Below are positions 3,501 to 12,019 of a stretch of DNA of 26,618 nt, piece after piece. Each line of letters begins with the position of its first letter. Within the stretch, counting starts at the first letter, position 1. The position numbers and the translations under genes are program-made. The notes beneath the pieces are model-generated. The model ran no database searches and had not been told where the DNA came from. It saw nothing but the letters and a program-made list of their open reading frames with translations. The DNA comes from a virus: positions 1-26,618 of IMG/VR virus record IMGVR_UViG_3300046798_000131, one strand, 5' to 3'.

Positions 3501-4610
3501 CTAGGCCGCGACCAGCTGCCGGCCGCGGCTGAGCACCTTCGCCGCCAGCTGATCCAGGGCGAGCCGGTCATCCTGGTGCCCGCTCTCCTGCGAGACGCGG
3601 GTCAGCCCCTGGGCAATGCCCCAGAACGAGCGCGGGCTAACGTTCTCGGTCTGCACGGTCGCGACGTAGGCCGCCTCGGCGTCGGCCTGGGTGGCGCCCA
3701 TCTTCCGCAGTTCATCAACAATCCCCTCCTTGGTCGCGGCAAGCTCGGTGCTGATCAGGGCCTTGATTAGCTGCTCGTCGGCGCTGGCGGGACGGGTGGA
3801 CACGCGGCGGACCAGGGCGCCGATCTCACGCAGGGTGTCGCGGAGGACGGCCGTGCCGACGTGCCGGCGCTTGAACTGCGCGCCGTAGACCGCGCCCCAG
3901 AGCATGTGGTTCCCGCACACGAACCGGAACAGCACCTCATCGCACCACACCGACGTCAACCCAACCTCGCTGTTGCGCAGCATCACGCCGCGGTACAGCT
4001 GCTGGCCGTCGCCCTGGCGCGCGCTGGGGTCGCTGACGATGCTGCCGCCGTTGACCATGATCAGGAAGCTATCCCGGTCACTGAGGTAGGCGCCGGCCGG
4101 CTTGCCGTCCCAGGTCGGCGGCGTGTCCCAGCCCTGCGCGCTCAGGGTGTTGACCACGGGCGCGTAGTAGTCGGCATCCCACAGCCGGCCGTACGTCTCG
4201 GTCGTGATGGCCCGCGCCGTGACGGTGCCCGTGTCGGGGGCGCGCTGGGCCAGCACTACGGCCTTGGTTCCGACCTGCGAGGCCTGCAGCCCGTGGTTCA
4301 GCGCCGCGGCCGCGACGTCGCTCGGCAGGGTGCGCACGTAGGCCGCGGGTGCCCCGACCAGCCGGCACAGCTGCCCGTGGGACCAGGGCGTGAGCTCGGC
4401 CTGTCCCCTGGGAGAGGCCAGGGCGATCCGGCCGTGGCTGCCGTCGCCGGCCTCGACCGGCATCACCTGCAGGTCCTTGGCATTCCAGGTTACTTCCCGG
4501 CTGGCCTGCTTGCGCGCCGTGACGGCGTCCACCAGGGCCTGGGGGCTGTCCATCCGCTGGTCAGCGGGACGGCTGTAGTACTCGCGGGCGGCAACGTTGA
4601 TCGTGTTCAT
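3501..4610 (-). CDS. DUF932-family phage/plasmid protein (369 aa)
   Basis: The ATG at 4608-4610 has an AGGA Shine-Dalgarno 8 nt upstream and is the first gene of the leftward operon. The protein matches the look of DUF932 (phage/plasmid-like) proteins. An N-terminal domain contains the region WSHGQLCRLVGAPAAYV; the centre has YGRLWDADYYAPVV and FLIMVNGGSIV; the hallmark stretch is LFRFVCGNHMLWG, followed by a helical C-terminal half. Length is typical for the family. The biochemical role of DUF932 is not established; such genes are common in early regions of phages and in plasmids. Being first behind the promoter, with a structured leader, suggests it is an early, regulated product. Family assignment is confident, function is not. 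Confidence 0.85.
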   Translation of the reverse strand: MNTINVAAREYYSRPADQRMDSPQALVDAVTARKQASREVTWNAKDLQVMPVEAGDGSHGRIALASPRGQAELTPWSHGQLCRLVGAPAAYVRTLPSDVAAAALNHGLQASQVGTKAVVLAQRAPDTGTVTARAITTETYGRLWDADYYAPVVNTLSAQGWDTPPTWDGKPAGAYLSDRDSFLIMVNGGSIVSDPSARQGDGQQLYRGVMLRNSEVGLTSVWCDEVLFRFVCGNHMLWGAVYGAQFKRRHVGTAVLRDTLREIGALVRRVSTRPASADEQLIKALISTELAATKEGIVDELRKMGATQADAEAAYVATVQTENVSPRSFWGIAQGLTRVSQESGHQDDRLALDQLAAKVLSRGRQLVAA

Positions 4611-4629
4611 GGCGTGTCCTGTTCTGCTT

Positions 4630-4662
4630 GCGGCGCCAGCGGAGATCCGCTGTGGGCGCCGC
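4630..4662 (-). promoter_or_regulatory. Stem-loop in the 5' leader of the leftward operon
   Basis: GCGGCGCC (4630-4637) pairs perfectly with GGCGCCGC (4655-4662). Inside it AGCGG/CCGCT forms a second stem around AGAT, with a 3-nt GTG bulge on one side. It lies about 20 nt upstream of the DUF932-family start codon, inside the predicted transcript leader. There is no U-run, so it is not an obvious intrinsic terminator. It may control ribosome access or RNA stability. Confidence 0.5.
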
Positions 4663-4672
4663 GGGTTATGGC

Positions 4673-4725
4673 TGCCGGCTGGGTGCTCGGGGTGCTCGCC
4701 CCTTGCGTTTGAGAATCAGCCGGCA
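4673..4725 (-). promoter_or_regulatory. Leader inverted repeat TGCCGGCTG / CAGCCGGCA
   Basis: A perfect 9-bp inverted repeat (4673-4681 and 4717-4725) encloses a 35-nt loop that begins with a tandem 9-bp repeat GGGTGCTCG (4681-4689 and 4690-4698). It falls within the presumed leader RNA of the leftward operon. Its right arm shares one base with, and is interleaved with, the DNA-level inverted repeat 4698-4766, so the two folds compete. Confidence 0.4.
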
Positions 4726-4766
4726 CCCGCGGTCCTTGCGGGCACGTCGATTCTCGGTCAAGGGGC
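4698..4766. repeat. Composite inverted repeat overlapping the leftward promoter
   Basis: GCCCCTTG (4698-4705) pairs with CAAGGGGC (4759-4766) and GAGAATC (4711-4717) with GATTCTC (4749-4755), separated by a 5/3-nt internal loop. A further CCCGC/GCGGG pair (4726-4730, 4738-4742) lies near the centre. The right arms coincide with the -10 and spacer of the predicted leftward promoter, so this could be an operator or a cruciform affecting transcription. Confidence 0.45.
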
Positions 4767-4779
4767 TGGAAGCTGTCAA
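4750..4779 (-). promoter_or_regulatory. Sigma70-like promoter for the leftward operon
   Basis: On the minus strand a consensus TTGACA -35 (4774-4779) is followed after 18 bp by GAGAAT (4750-4755, four of six consensus bases). Transcription would start near 4743 and give a leader of about 130 nt before the DUF932-family ATG. The -10 lies inside an arm of an inverted repeat, suggesting regulation. Confidence 0.5.
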
Positions 4780-4811
4780 TAGCTAACTACAGCCACTGCC
4801 GGCAAAGGCTG

Positions 4812-4829
4812 TTAGGTCGCATAACCTAA
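4812..4829. promoter_or_regulatory. Operator-like palindrome TTAGGT-N6-ACCTAA
   Basis: Perfect 6-bp arms (4812-4817 and 4824-4829) around a 6-bp centre form an 18-bp dyad, a size typical of dimeric repressor sites. It sits in the AT-richer part of the divergent region. Just to its left ACAGCC/GGCTGT (4789-4794, 4807-4812) forms another small inverted repeat around the palindrome TGCCGGCA. No repressor gene is visible in this window. Confidence 0.35.
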
Positions 4830-4843
4830 ACTCCCCTGGTAGC

Positions 4844-4945
4844 GTTTTCCACAGGGTGGCAGGGGCAAGGGTGCGCGTTTTCGCCCGCGTTGAACCTGGG
4901 GCATCCTGGCGCGTTCTACGGCCTGTTGAAAAAGCTGTGGAAAAC
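4844..4945. repeat. Inverted DnaA-box-like pair GTTTTCCACAG
   Basis: GTTTTCCACAG at 4844-4854 and its exact reverse complement CTGTGGAAAAC at 4935-4945 are 80 bp apart. The core TTTTCCACA differs by one base from the classic DnaA box TTATCCACA. The second copy lies in the spacer of a weak plus-strand promoter-like pair (TTGAAA 4926-4931). The pair, in the AT-richest DNA of the window, is suggestive of a replication origin. Confidence 0.45.
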
Positions 4946-5063
4946 CGGGCTAACTTAGGCAAACGGCCGGAGCGCGGGTTGACTTCTGGCCTGGGAGGTT
5001 GACTTTCTGCGGCAGCCGGCGCCGGCTGGCCGTACTGAGCCGGCCGCCGGCCGCGGTTGGGAG

Positions 5064-5090
5064 GACCCTACGATCCGGGATCGTAGGGTC
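5064..5090. repeat. 27-bp palindrome with perfect 12-bp arms
   Basis: GACCCTACGATC (5064-5075) and GATCGTAGGGTC (5079-5090) are exact reverse complements around CGG. There is no U-run, and the two operons diverge here, so a transcription terminator would have no obvious job. A protein-binding site (operator, resolution or attachment site) or an origin hairpin is more likely. Confidence 0.55.
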
Positions 5091-5205
5091 TGATCCGGCA
5101 AGCGCCGGCAGCGCGCCAGGTTACCGCGCCGCGGTCGCCGGCCTGCCGGCCGCGGTCCCAACTGGCGCGCCGAGCCGCGCCGCCGGCCGCGCCACCAGGG
5201 CGCAG

Positions 5206-5265
5206 GGGAGCAGCGCGCCAGCGCGCAGCCTCGGTGCGGGCAGGGAGCAGCGCGCCAGCGCGCAG
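5206..5265. repeat. 23-bp direct repeat, two copies
   Basis: The 23-bp word beginning GGGAGCAGCGCGCC occurs at 5206-5228 and again at 5243-5265, a period of 37 bp. Each copy contains the imperfect palindrome GCGCGCCAGCGCGC. The spacing and position in the divergent region resemble iterons or operators. Confidence 0.5.
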
Positions 5266-5452
5266 GCCCCCTGCATTGTCCGGGGGCTGGGGGGCGGGGG
5301 GCGCGCGAGGGCACGCGCCCGACTTCAGATCAATTTTTTGAAAATCGTGCGGCGGCCATCCCCCTCGGGCCGGGGGGTGCCCGCGGCCCGCGGCGGGAGG
5401 GGGATCTAGACAAGCCCGCGGATCTGGTCCCATCCTCCCCCAGGACCCCCGC

Positions 5453-5815
5453 ATGTTCCAGCGACTCGCGACCGCGCTCCTCTTCCGCCGCCTGGCGCGT
5501 GACCTCGGCGAGGTCGCGGCCGCGCTCCGCCAGCAGAACGCGCTGCTGCTGCGCCTGGCCGACCGCTACGCCCCGGCCGACCCGCCGACCGAGCGGGTGG
5601 AGGTCCGGATGGACACCGGCGTGAGCCACCTCGACGCCACCGAGGCGCAGCTCGCCCAGGAGTATGTGGCGCGGACCCAGCGCGACACCGGGCACATCCC
5701 CGACGACGAAGAGGTGCTGATCTATCTGGCCGATGAGAAGACCCACGACCTGCACCAGCGGCTGGTGGCGCGCGATGCGGACCTGGAGCGCCTGCGGGCG
5801 GCGCGCGAGTGGTGA
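5453..5815 (+). CDS. Hypothetical protein, first gene of the rightward operon (120 aa)
   Basis: The ATG start has a weak AGGA about 8 nt upstream. The N-terminal ~40 residues are amphipathic and helical (MFQRLATALLFRRLARDL, then LRQQNALLLRLADRY), a likely coiled coil. Residues ~43-95 are acidic (VEVRMDTG, DDEEVLIYLADE) and the C-terminus is again helical (LVARDADLERLRAAREW). No family recognised. It overlaps the next gene by GTGA and lies directly before the terminase genes, so a packaging or early-late transition role is possible but unproven. Confidence 0.65.
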   Translation: MFQRLATALLFRRLARDLGEVAAALRQQNALLLRLADRYAPADPPTERVEVRMDTGVSHLDATEAQLAQEYVARTQRDTGHIPDDEEVLIYLADEKTHDLHQRLVARDADLERLRAAREW

Positions 5816-6622: not shown

Positions 6623-6634
6623 GCATATGTATCA
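6623..6634. repeat. GCATATG-containing word over the large-terminase start
   Basis: GCATATGTATCA matches GCATATGCATCA at 608-619 in 11 of 12 bases. It includes the terminase ATG (6627), which has no Shine-Dalgarno upstream. Initiation probably relies on coupling with the small-subunit gene. Confidence 0.25.
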
Positions 6635-8918
6635 CCCGGATGTGATCGCCGAGCGCGAGGCCCAGGCGACGCGCCAGTTCGGGAGCGCCTTCCCGAACGG
6701 CGTCATCCCGTGGTACTCGGTCCCTGACAGCGCCGCGCTGACCGCCAGCGCGATGCAGGCGGTCGACGACGAGGGCGCGCCGACCCGGGCGCTCACGGAG
6801 GACGAAGGGCTGTTCGTGTCGTCGGCGCGGCTGCGCTACATCTACGACTTCCCCTACTTCGCCGAGCGCTTCTGCTGGATCGACATGGAAGGCCACGGCC
6901 TGCGCCGGCTGACGCCGTTCTGGGAGTCGCAGCGCCTCGTGCTCGATCAGCTCGGACGGATCGAGAAAGCGAACCGGGACAACGGCTCCCCCGACGGCCT
7001 GCTGCTGAACATCCTCAAGGCGCGGCAGCTCGGCGTGTCCACCCTCTCCGAGGCGCTGGTCGCGCACCGCATCATCACCCGCGCCCACATCCGGGCCCTG
7101 GCCGCGGCCGACGTCGAGGAACAGGCCGGGTATCTGTTCCGGATGGTGGTGCGGATCTACGACCAGCTGCCCTGGTTCCTGCGGCCGCGCAAGGTCTACT
7201 TCAACAAGAACCGCGAGCTCAGTCTGGCGAACTCGTCGTTCCTGAAGACCGCCTGGGGCAAGTCGACCCGCGGCGCGCTCCAGAGCGTGAGCGGCGCTGA
7301 AGGCAGCAAGGGCTCGATCGGCCGCGGCCAGACCTACTCGGTGGTGCACATCAGCGAGCTCCCGACCTGGGAGAACCCGGAGCAGCTCGACACCGCGCTC
7401 CTCCCGGCGATCCCCTACGCGCCCGACACGCTGGTGCTGTACGAGGCGACCGCGGAGTTCGCCGGCGACTGGTGGCACAAGCACTGGCTGGCGAGCGGAG
7501 AAGGTGAAGGCCGCTTCAAGAACATCTTCATCCCGTGGTCGGCCGAGCCGAAGAAGTACACCCTGCCCGCGCCGGTCGACTGGACGCCGCTCGCCTCGAC
7601 GACCACCCACGCCACCAAGTGCGAGCGGGACTCGCCGAAGTGGTTCGCCGGGAAGACGGTCACCCTGACCCGGGACCAGCTGTACTGGTACGAGCGGACC
7701 CGCGCCTTCTACGAGAAGAAGGGCCAGCTCTACAAGTTCCTCAAGGAGTACCCCGCCGACGACCAGGAGTGCTTCCAGTATGCCGGCCGCTCGGTGTTCA
7801 CCCTGGAGCAGCTCGAACAGATCGACCAGGCCGGCTCCCGCCCGCTCTTGGACGTCTGGGCGGTCGAGCCCGCGCTGGAGATCGCGCAGCTGCGGCGCGA
7901 CCCCACCACCGCGAGCGCCGACCTCCAGGCCAAGCGGATCGTGCCGCCGCTCGCGCCGCACGTCACGCGGCTCTCGACCCGGGTGAGTCACGAGATCGAA
8001 CCGGTGCCGCCGGGGTATGGCTTCCGCCGGCTCGATAAGGCGCAGCTCGCCAGCCTGCCGAACCTGCGCCAGGGGGTGTTCTCGATCTGGGAGTACCCGC
8101 GGCTCCGGGGCAACCGCCGCTACATCCTCGGGGTGGACGTGAGCGATGGGCTCGGCCAGGACTACAGCGTGGTCGATGTCATCCGCCAGCCGACCATCGA
8201 AGAGCCTGCCGAGCAGGTCGCGCAGTACGTCACCAACGTGCTCGACCCCAAGGCGCTCGCCTTCATCTGCGACGCGATCGGCCGCTACTACTGCGACAGC
8301 GACGGCATCGAGGCGCTCGCCGCGATCGAGACCAACAACCACGGCTTGGCGACGCAGGACACGCTGCAGCTGCACCTCGGGTACTGCCACTTCTACGTCT
8401 GGGAGTATGCCGACGCGGCGAGCGTCGAGCGGCGCTACAGCACACGCATCGGGTGGCTGACCTCCCCGCGCACCCGGCCGCTCCTCCTCGCCAGCTTCCA
8501 CGGCGCGGTGACCGCGGTCGACCCGATCAGCCATCAGCCCGATTACATCCTGAACAGCCCGATCACCCGCGGCGAGCTCCGCCACTTCATCACCGCCAGC
8601 ACCATCGGCGAGGCCGAAGCGGCGCGCGGGCAGCACGACGACTGCGTGATGGCGGCGGCGATCGGCTACTACGTCGCCTGGCGCATGGCCGGCGGCGAAG
8701 TCGAACCGGTCGCCGAGCGGCGCCGCCGCCACGCCGCCTTCAACGCGCTGGCGAAAGAACGCCAGATCGAACGCCCCGACTACCGCAACTCCCCGGCGAC
8801 CACCGAGGACGCCGACGACCTGGAGACCGACCATGAAGAACGCGCCAGCAGCGACGACTACTACACCCTCAGCGATGAGACCGCGGGGATCTACTTCGAC
8901 GACCGCACCCGCGCCTGA
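6627..8918 (+). CDS. terL: Terminase large subunit (ATPase and nuclease, 763 aa)
   Basis: This is the motor that pumps DNA into the prohead and cuts it. The ATPase domain shows a Walker A-type LKARQLGVSTL (residues ~130-140), a Walker B-type VVHISELPTW (~239-248, with E244 as the likely catalytic Glu in the S-E form seen in some terminases) and the coupling motif LYEATAEF (~271-278). The nuclease domain has the three expected acidic positions: GVDVSDG (D504), AIETNNHG (E568) and HDDCVMA (D671/D672). Length is on the long side for the family, with a ~100-residue N-terminal extension and a ~65-residue charged C-terminal tail. All key residues are present, so it should be active. There is no clear Shine-Dalgarno. 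Confidence 0.95.
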   Translation: MYHPDVIAEREAQATRQFGSAFPNGVIPWYSVPDSAALTASAMQAVDDEGAPTRALTEDEGLFVSSARLRYIYDFPYFAERFCWIDMEGHGLRRLTPFWESQRLVLDQLGRIEKANRDNGSPDGLLLNILKARQLGVSTLSEALVAHRIITRAHIRALAAADVEEQAGYLFRMVVRIYDQLPWFLRPRKVYFNKNRELSLANSSFLKTAWGKSTRGALQSVSGAEGSKGSIGRGQTYSVVHISELPTWENPEQLDTALLPAIPYAPDTLVLYEATAEFAGDWWHKHWLASGEGEGRFKNIFIPWSAEPKKYTLPAPVDWTPLASTTTHATKCERDSPKWFAGKTVTLTRDQLYWYERTRAFYEKKGQLYKFLKEYPADDQECFQYAGRSVFTLEQLEQIDQAGSRPLLDVWAVEPALEIAQLRRDPTTASADLQAKRIVPPLAPHVTRLSTRVSHEIEPVPPGYGFRRLDKAQLASLPNLRQGVFSIWEYPRLRGNRRYILGVDVSDGLGQDYSVVDVIRQPTIEEPAEQVAQYVTNVLDPKALAFICDAIGRYYCDSDGIEALAAIETNNHGLATQDTLQLHLGYCHFYVWEYADAASVERRYSTRIGWLTSPRTRPLLLASFHGAVTAVDPISHQPDYILNSPITRGELRHFITASTIGEAEAARGQHDDCVMAAAIGYYVAWRMAGGEVEPVAERRRRHAAFNALAKERQIERPDYRNSPATTEDADDLETDHEERASSDDYYTLSDETAGIYFDDRTRA

Positions 8919-9859: not shown

Positions 9860-12019
9860 ATGGCTGACTTCTCCCGCTCCGGCGTCGCTGACCTCGGCCT
9901 CCCCCGCACCAGCGCCGAGCAGCTCCAGCACGGCGACCCGCGCGTCCTCGGCTGGCTGCGCGAGTGGATCCAGGAAGGCGACATGATCAACCGCCAGGAT
10001 CCCTCCTACGACCTGATCGGCAAGGCCCAGGACTACATCGTCGGCAACCAGCTCTCGGCCGACCAGTGCAAGCTGAAGTACCTCCCGCAGGTGGTGATCA
10101 ACGAGACCCGCAAGGCGATGCAGGCGCACGTCGCCGCGATCACCGACCTCAAGCCGGTCGCCGGCTGGAAGACCAATCCCGAGTACCAGGTCCAGGCCAA
10201 CATGCTGAACCAGTACCTCATGGCCGAGTGGATGACGACCATGATGGATCTGGACCTGGGGGACTGTGTGAAGTACTCCCTGGTCGGCGGTACCGGCGAC
10301 CTGGTGATCGACTGGGATCCGCACGCGCCCCACGGCGGCGCCCACCAGCTGACCGCGCGCGACCCGCGCGACACGCTGCCGCTCCGCCCCTCGTTCGGCA
10401 GAAGCAACCAGCTGTGGGAGGGCGTCTGCTTCCGCGAGGAGCACACCGTCAACGTCCTCAAGAGCATGTACCCGATGCAGGCGGCGCTCTTCAAGGCCTC
10501 ACCCGACACGCTCCTCGGGCAGGTGATGGGCCGCTTCCGCACCGGGCTGTCGCGGCTGATCTCACCCGCTGACCCGCTCGACTCGATCGCCTGGCCGGGC
10601 AGCGCCGCCACCACCCGCCGCGCCCGCGCCGGCGCGATCGTCGTCTACCGTGCCTACTTCAAGGACCGCACCCGGAACCTCACCAGCAAGCCGATCCCGA
10701 TGGGCACCCCCGGCGCGAACTGGGCCTACGTGGTGCAGCCGCAGCAGCCGCTCTACCCGCGGATGCGCCTGATCGTCGCGACCGAGGACGCGATCATCTA
10801 CGACGGCCCCAACACCTACTGGCACGGGATGTTCCCGTTCTGCCGGCTGAAACTCTGGAGCGTCCCCTGGCAGTTCCTGGGCGTGCCGCTCTTCAACGAC
10901 CTCCTGCCGCTGCAGGACGCGATCAACGACACGATGCAGGACGTCCGCCTGGCGATGCGGCAGTGGACCAATCCCGACATCACCTACAACCGCACCGCCG
11001 TCAGCGAAGCGACCATGAAGCTGATGGACCCGCGGCGCCCCGGCAAGCGCGTCAAGGTGATGCCCGGTTTCGGCGATCCCTGGAAGAAGGAAGACGGGCC
11101 GAACCCCGCCATCATCCAGATGGGGATCGAGATGTGGGAGAAGCTCACCCAGAAGTTCGCCGACCTCTCGGGCACCGCCAACCTGCAGGCGCTCCTGCAG
11201 CTGCGCCAGATGCCCTCGGCCGACACCATCCAGAAGTACTACGAAGCGCTCACGCCCGAGATCCGCTCTGAAGCGCGCCAGGTCGAACTGTTCCTCCGCG
11301 ACTTCAGCGAGATGGTCAAGATCAACTACTTCCAGTTCCTCAGCCAATCGAAGCGCGTGCAGATCCTCGGGCAGGGCGGGAACATGCTCAACGAGTTCGA
11401 CTTCGATCCGGCGATGTTCGTCCCGGCGCTCCTCCCGCACCAACCGGGCTACACCCCGGAGCTCGACGCCAACAACACCACCCGCGACCAGCGCGCGCAG
11501 TATTTCCACAAGCAGTTCGTGTTCGTGGTGCAGCCGAACTCGGTCCTGGCGATGGACGCTACCGAGCGGAAGATGATGCGGGTGCAGCTCGCGCGCATGG
11601 GCTACTACGACTTCTGGTCGCTGCACGAGACGCTCGAAACGCCGAACGTCGGCGCCCCACCCGCCCTGCCGCTGCCGCCGCTCACCCCGCCGCCCGCCGA
11701 TGTCCTCCAGCAGATCCTCCTCCAGGTGCAGAACACCCAGGGCGCGCTCGGCGTGATGGCGACCGGGGCGATGGGGCTGCCGCAATACACCGACCCGGCG
11801 ACCCAGCGCACCTTCTCGCTCGACCAGGCCTCAGGCCAGATCCTCGAAGTCCGCGTCCCGGTCACCGTCACCGAGCGGCTGCAGGCGCAGGCCTCGCTCG
11901 GCATCGGCCAGACCGTCAACCCCGCCGGCCGGAAAGCCTCCGGCCAGGCCCCGCCCCAGTCCGAGACCAAGGGTGATGAACCCGGCGGGCGGCAAACCAT
12001 CACTGAGTCGAAAAAGTAA
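9860..12019 (+). CDS. Portal protein (P22-like, 719 aa)
   Basis: The portal forms the dodecameric ring through which DNA enters and leaves the capsid. The ATG follows the previous stop by two bases, with AAGGA nine bases upstream. The family signature is the stretch PWQFLGVPLFNDLLPLQD (~336-353) continuing into an AINDTMQDVRLAM helix, preceded by the beta-rich WHGMFPFCRLKLW. Residues ~420-500 are helical (stem/crown), with LSGTANLQALLQLRQM and KYYEALTPEIRSEARQVELFLRDF split across them. The length agrees with P22-type portals. The C-terminal ~90 residues are Pro/Gln-rich and probably disordered. Its place after the terminase is the usual order. Confidence 0.9.
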   Translation: MADFSRSGVADLGLPRTSAEQLQHGDPRVLGWLREWIQEGDMINRQDPSYDLIGKAQDYIVGNQLSADQCKLKYLPQVVINETRKAMQAHVAAITDLKPVAGWKTNPEYQVQANMLNQYLMAEWMTTMMDLDLGDCVKYSLVGGTGDLVIDWDPHAPHGGAHQLTARDPRDTLPLRPSFGRSNQLWEGVCFREEHTVNVLKSMYPMQAALFKASPDTLLGQVMGRFRTGLSRLISPADPLDSIAWPGSAATTRRARAGAIVVYRAYFKDRTRNLTSKPIPMGTPGANWAYVVQPQQPLYPRMRLIVATEDAIIYDGPNTYWHGMFPFCRLKLWSVPWQFLGVPLFNDLLPLQDAINDTMQDVRLAMRQWTNPDITYNRTAVSEATMKLMDPRRPGKRVKVMPGFGDPWKKEDGPNPAIIQMGIEMWEKLTQKFADLSGTANLQALLQLRQMPSADTIQKYYEALTPEIRSEARQVELFLRDFSEMVKINYFQFLSQSKRVQILGQGGNMLNEFDFDPAMFVPALLPHQPGYTPELDANNTTRDQRAQYFHKQFVFVVQPNSVLAMDATERKMMRVQLARMGYYDFWSLHETLETPNVGAPPALPLPPLTPPPADVLQQILLQVQNTQGALGVMATGAMGLPQYTDPATQRTFSLDQASGQILEVRVPVTVTERLQAQASLGIGQTVNPAGRKASGQAPPQSETKGDEPGGRQTITESKK

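Follow-up and report, generated by a model that had tools for sequence, protein, structure and literature searches.

The DNA analysed here (the window) comprises positions 1 to 26,618 of a virus record, IMGVR_UViG_3300046798_000131, from an uncultivated virus of bacteria. A palindrome lies in it between two divergent gene blocks, flanked by a DUF932-like gene at 3501-4610 (-) on one side and an ORF at 5453-5815 (+) on the other, so that, as the earlier note had stated, genes point away from it on both sides. A portal match at 9860-12019 is weak (E 5.6e-5), and no tRNA was found in the window. Three long ORFs overlap the palindrome (4955-5314 (-), 4999-5409 (+) and 5068-5454 (-)), and these we presume to be chance ORFs of a GC-rich stretch. 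The features of the locus are the following, with the strand given where one was assigned.

3501..4610, minus strand: DUF932-like (phrog_1362) gene, with which the leftward block opens
4750..4779, minus strand: sigma-70-like promoter, TTGACA-18-GAGAAT, reading towards the DUF932-like gene
4845..4853 (TTTTCCACA) and 4936..4944 (TGTGGAAAA): inverted DnaA-box-like nonamers, the sole TTWTNCACA matches in the window
5056..5162: complete element, GTTGGGA...TCCCAAC; TTGG to CCAAC spans 106 bp here and 105 bp in the four relatives
5056..5062: left arm of the closing inverted repeat, GTTGGGA
5064..5090: palindrome, or hairpin 1, with perfect 13-bp arms and centre G 5077
5097..5103: 5' arm of the weaker helix 2, pairing with 5119-5125; score not above the rotation null
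5119..5125: 3' arm of the weaker helix 2; score not above the rotation null
5156..5162: right arm of the closing inverted repeat, TCCCAAC
5206..5274: iteron-like direct repeats of 32 nt, 88% identical, at a spacing of 37 bp; their core, GCAGCGCGCCAG, recurs at 5108
5274..5331: 58-bp box, CATTGTCCG...CGCGCCCGACTTCAGATC, with fixed spacing in relatives
5319..5351: AT-rich stretch, a candidate unwinding element, with the lowest-GC 30-mers of the window
5400..5411, plus strand: conserved motif GGGGATCTAGAC, a candidate promoter element preceding the first rightward ORF
6627..8918, plus strand: large terminase gene, in the rightward block

The leftward promoter is the only promoter-like site in a scan of 4500-5500 and stands 285 bp from the palindrome. 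Exact copies of the motif GGGGATCTAGAC occur in 24 of 67 loci, each overlapping locus being counted on its own, with two copies in L009, and ATCCT-like letters can be seen by eye about 17 bases beyond the motif, which is a candidate phage promoter. An intrinsic terminator was rejected for the palindrome because no T-run directly follows its GC-rich stem, the sole terminator-like site of 4500-5500 being at 4689-4702; the earlier note had likewise thought a terminator unlikely, and indeed neither arm is followed by a T-run.

The palindrome within the window

The arms of the palindrome (5064-5076 and 5078-5090) are 13 nt each and 100% complementary around G 5077. The earlier note had described the same site as a perfect palindrome with 12-bp arms around CGG, which is one pair short, and as the cleanest dyad in the window. 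The observation is confirmed: the longest perfect arm in the 26.6-kb window is 13, whether the loop limit is set to 1, 3 or 8, and no perfect short-loop palindrome there is longer. Arms of 13 were reached in 1 of 200 dinucleotide shuffles of the window when the loop was at most 1 and in 2 of 200 when it was at most 3 or at most 8, and in 2 of 2,000 shuffles of the intergenic region 4611-5452. The palindrome is therefore unlikely to have arisen by chance.

It is also a single site. No further copies were found in its own virus record, a DNA similarity search of phage and plasmid collections gave no match, and the exact 27-mer occurred in 0 contigs of IMG/VR, in a search from which the window's own or near-identical records were possibly excluded. 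The search for the 12-mer in the rest of the phage, which the earlier note had proposed, returned no exact copies but two places in the window, both with 2 mismatches, and 20 of 100 shuffles held at least as many matches. Among the perfect or one-mismatch palindromes upstream of 45 terminases from relatives, none resembled 5064-5090 at the equivalent place; the perfect 13-bp form is seen in the window only, and the homologous stems described below are imperfect. A different perfect palindrome with 13-bp arms and 1 base between them (CAGCTATGGCAACCGTTGCCATAGCTG) is found at about 4513-4539 of L019 and also in L032 and L049, which are overlapping or near-identical relatives, in each case 3,488 bp before the terminase.

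The element in related phages and the covariation of its first hairpin

With the large terminase as query we recovered 59 distinct IMG/VR loci, the remotest at 25-33% identity and several on contigs of about 70 kb, and with the DUF932-like protein 5; in bacterial genomes the terminase scan gave one remote match, in a Runella bin, among the matches listed. Four related phage contigs of 49-70 kb, namely G001 (locus L043), G002 (L011), G003 (L008) and G004 (L009), identify the palindrome as hairpin 1 of a 105-106-bp element closed by GTTGGRA...TYCCAAC. In these relatives the element runs from TTGGRA through TTGGGGATC, which starts at base 17, to YCCAAC, measures 105 bp in total (106 in the window) and aligns without gaps. 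Between L011 and L043 the left flank and the first 40 bases are near letter-identical, and most of the remainder has diverged at constant length. The ends of G001 share no exact overlap and two frames cross the joint, and its circularity is putative. An attC-like reading of the closing repeat was rejected, its orientation being the wrong way round relative to the attC layout.

A model built from the four relatives (R1) matched the window at 5055-5163 with E 9e-13, a value that combines sequence with a structure supplied by us, and laid the palindrome on the model stem. In the other eight records, scanned whole, the best match had E 0.07, and among the loci given to the model (54 plus 15) only L074 (5028-5127) and L075 (8079-8178) fell below 0.01 besides the element carriers. 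These two matches, at E 0.002, come from another phage and lie in what by eye is portal-like coding sequence; we count them as chance because they are coding-like and motif-selected. The pattern GTTGGAA-N10-TTGGGGATC retrieved 12 stretches from IMG/VR, comprising the 4 known relatives and 8 unrelated stretches, with L074 and L075 among the latter.

Across the five records the element occurs once per record and keeps its length, and its first hairpin combines a conserved loop with compensatory changes in the stem. The homologous stem of the four relatives has 8 pairs, 5 to 7 of them standard or G-T, around an 11-nt loop; the eight pairs correspond to the outer part of the window palindrome and are centred on the conserved loop sequence, which reads TTGGGGATC in the relatives and TCCGGGATC in the window. 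Counted over this sample of only five sequences, 33 of 40 stem cells are paired (8 of 8 pairs in the window, 7 in L043 and 6 each in L011, L008 and L009), 5 of the 8 pairs have changed on both sides, versions of the stem slid along the alignment pair 20-47.5% of their cells, and the covariation score was reached by 0 of 500 shuffles. The four relatives by themselves, which had no part in proposing the stem and hence test one read off the window, pair 25 of 32 cells (slid versions, 15.6-46.9%), a value matched by 12 of 500 shuffles for cells paired and by 9 of 500 for the covariation score. When all helices were searched with an ad hoc score, hairpin 1 came first with 4.42, narrowly above the maximum of 4.29 among 100 rotated controls, and helix 2 fell under the null maximum. 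RNAalifold, run unprompted on the five sequences, returned the closing repeat, hairpin 1 and a second and third hairpin, with a covariation term of +2.2, which is a net penalty. The letters of the arms thus drift and pairing and loop stay, which makes a single-strand fold likelier to be what is selected than the arm sequence of a repressor or recombinase site. This also bears on the earlier note, which had named absence from all related phages, together with no binding activity, as what would refute it: the exact sequence of the palindrome is indeed absent from the relatives in IMG/VR, but a homologous hairpin is present in four of them.

The origin-like neighborhood and the dif-like sites of other relatives

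From left to right the region holds the leftward promoter, the DnaA-like nonamers, the element, the iterons, the 58-bp box, the AT-rich minimum, GGGGATCTAGAC and the first rightward ORF. Iteron-type origins are laid out as iterons and an AT-rich stretch, and direct repeats beside an AT-rich stretch are present here. Iteron-like repeats, box and AT-rich minimum are common to most box-bearing relatives. The box, CATTGTCCG...CCCGACTTCAG, has no gaps in 19 of 22 regions. It immediately precedes the AT-rich minimum and could be an initiator-binding or a packaging site; a wider box pattern retrieved 3 contigs. Repeats are in excess (p<0.05) in 18 of 21 regions, with L007 left out for its short upstream sequence. 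In 18 of the 20 loci that we chose among the box-bearing ones, the AT-rich minimum of the locus follows the box at a distance of about 50 bp, a count somewhat favored because a T4/A4 run behind the box was one criterion in the selection of the box and repeat regions. That filter is also why L009 falls outside the box and repeat sets; its AT-rich minimum still lies behind the box. The DnaA-box-like nonamers, absent in most relatives, form a pair within a perfect inverted repeat whose 11-bp arms stand 80 bases apart. The cumulative GC skew has a maximum, not a minimum, near 5000, which by the usual rule counts against an origin; the signal is weak and confounded by gene direction.

At a place similar to that of the element, a dif/Xer-like site (11-6-11) is present in 12 to 14 other relatives and reads GTGTCTGATAA-N6-TTATGTTAACC. 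Twelve distinct sites were recovered with a matrix whose training set comprised 11 of them, L028 being the sole new one, and L048 and L033 hold two further sites that by eye have one extra base between the arms. The sites stand in either orientation, 172-281 bp before the box in 11 of the 13 that could be placed (65 bp in L051 and 137 bp in L006; no box was found in L028), and the element precedes the box by 213-243 bp. Their arms are conserved and their 6-base centers variable, RNAalifold gave no common fold for them, and examples standing before iterons include L025:474-500, L026:962-988, L031:2163-2189 and L051:5426-5452; several of the records also have a PF00589 integrase. Against the dif seeds of E. 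coli, B. subtilis and F. alni as given in PMC3025954, the arms of 13 sites (L005 left out) match the best of the three at 12-18 of 22 positions, compared with 13-15 of 22 for the best chance match in element-bearing loci. The term dif-like therefore rests more on the shared arm pattern than on identity. No dif-like core (11-6-11, with an TTATGTTAA-type arm) was found in the window or in the element-bearing loci scanned, among which G001 was scanned whole, and nothing scanned carries element and dif-like site together. A stricter set of 16 regions, with duplicate boxes dropped, contains 2 element carriers, 9 dif-like carriers and 0 with both; the other scans give the fuller counts. These distributions are suggestive of an element and a dif-like site that may replace each other at one slot.

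A proposed single-stranded origin element and its alternatives

Known origins offer partial parallels. Origins of the lambda type have iterons followed by an AT-rich stretch, and the phage region keeps this order, but it is intergenic instead of inside an initiator gene and adds the folded element and the 58-bp box. The oriV of the IncQ plasmid RSF1010 has a hairpin beside repeats of roughly 20 bp, with a GC-rich and an AT-rich stretch. Like the phage element with its surroundings, it thus sets a hairpin, there belonging to the sites ssiA and ssiB that are read by the primase RepB', beside repeats and GC-rich and AT-rich stretches. The description of ssiA in PMC4434180 is of a 40-nt site with its hairpin at nt 7-27. 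Unlike RSF1010, the phage has one larger element with a closing repeat in place of two ssi sites on opposite strands, and a search with PF09250 recognized no RepB'-type primase in the phages (0 of 13 records). As for a RepA-type helicase, AAA_25, a broad family that we take to include such helicases, has matches in 10 of the 13 records, as it does in all 14 control genomes, and phmmer with the AAA_25 protein of G001 found no solved structure, RepA included, up to E 1. Further matches among early G001 ORFs are to a Dda-like helicase, a cold-shock domain, DNA polymerase A and an HTH_17 protein, presumably of the excisionase type, whose gene adjoins the integrase gene; no initiator or primase was recognized among the 20 of 44 G001 ORFs scanned with Pfam. 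Near the same integrase, L087:17184-17657 encodes a circularly permuted YpsA (SLOG) protein. With dif/pdif sites and the Xer-dependent attP of phages, the likeness lies in the place of the element, which resembles that of the 11-6-11 site of the relatives; the window differs in having no dif-like core.

Our preferred reading, to which we give a probability of roughly 0.4, is that the palindrome belongs, as a hairpin, to a conserved folded element in an origin-like region and that this element acts as single-stranded DNA. The element would stand at the left end of a control region that resembles a replication origin and separates the divergent gene blocks; the repeats, the 58-bp box and the AT-rich stretch behind the element would constitute the origin. 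The element would fold as a single strand, either as a cruciform or as a hairpin in DNA that melts outward from the AT-rich stretch close by, and may mark the loading place of a replication or priming protein. The anatomy has fairly good support, and the role as a part of an origin is one that we infer from sequence. Among the four options that the earlier note had listed, an origin hairpin is the one that best fits the covarying stem and the origin-like context.

The main rival, a possible but doubtful one, is that 5056-5162 is transcribed into a structured noncoding RNA or leader, some 106 nt long, whose first hairpin would be the palindrome. Stems that covary around a conserved loop are characteristic of RNA, and as RNA the window, L011 and L043 fold better than their shuffles (z -3.96, -2.81 and -2.36); L008 and L009 do not (z 0.35 and 0.61), and the window folded as DNA gives z -5.33. 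Moreover, 4600-5500 contains no match above the gathering score of any Rfam family, the scan of 4500-5500, which covered promoters of the sigma-70 type, finds none pointing into the element, and the 110 cells of the three helices include 5 G-T and 6 A-C, so that neither strand is favored. It is the origin-like context that leads us to prefer a DNA fold over an RNA. A further reading is a recombination or multimer-resolution site standing in for the dif/Xer-like site of the relatives, for which speak the similar distances to the box and the lack of any scanned sequence with both; the earlier note's resolution site, a weak proposal, gains to that extent. We nevertheless think it unlikely, as a PF00239 resolvase is found in 0 of 13 records, some of which are fragments, the core is missing from the window and from G001, the element's arms vary in sequence as those of a recombinase site would not, and the dif-like sites stand in either orientation. 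ParA-type AAA_31 was likewise matched in 0 of 13 records.

The fixed spacing of the box and its place about 1.35 kb before the terminase gene would accord with a packaging (cos or pac) neighborhood in which the hairpin serves terminase binding. This, too, we consider quite unlikely: all seven placed contigs of 69.7-71.6 kb have the box in their interior, at differing places whose distance from the nearer-read end ranges from 9.5 to 55.5 kb, so that there is no sign of a fixed end at the box, and cos sites do not typically have iterons with an AT-rich minimum. A perfect dyad within a divergent intergenic region invites comparison with the operator of a dimeric repressor specific for the arm sequence, but arm letters that change under kept pairing, a single copy in the window and the distance to the only promoter-like site make such an operator very improbable, and the repressor site of the earlier note is correspondingly less well supported. 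The same applies to its attachment core. PF00589 is matched in 8 of 13 records, the window record not among them, and in place of an attP next to its integrase we find the integrase 22-25 kb from the element in G001 (if circular), G003 and G004, or 44 kb away in G001 if linear. Terminator, attP and ordinary operator are accordingly all disfavored. There is, finally, a very slight chance that a random palindrome happens to sit atop an unrelated conserved region; five sequences are few and the perfect 13-bp form occurs in one of them, but the rarity among shuffles, the covariation, the rank of the helix, the stem in the relatives taken alone and the model match all argue against coincidence.

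Returning to the proposed single-stranded origin element, the comparison illustrates how a lone palindrome can be read through its relatives, in which letters that differ while pairing is kept make the fold look selected. In this region, a group of uncultivated phages would have a short candidate origin that lends itself to testing. More tentatively, and with considerable doubt, the element may represent an undescribed class, that is, a fixed-length multihairpin element of single-stranded DNA or RNA that would serve the origin of a phage lineage and be exchangeable with a dif/Xer site in sister lineages. If this is true, two unrelated devices occupy a single slot next to the origin, and the replacement of one by the other would bear on how such phages keep their circles single.
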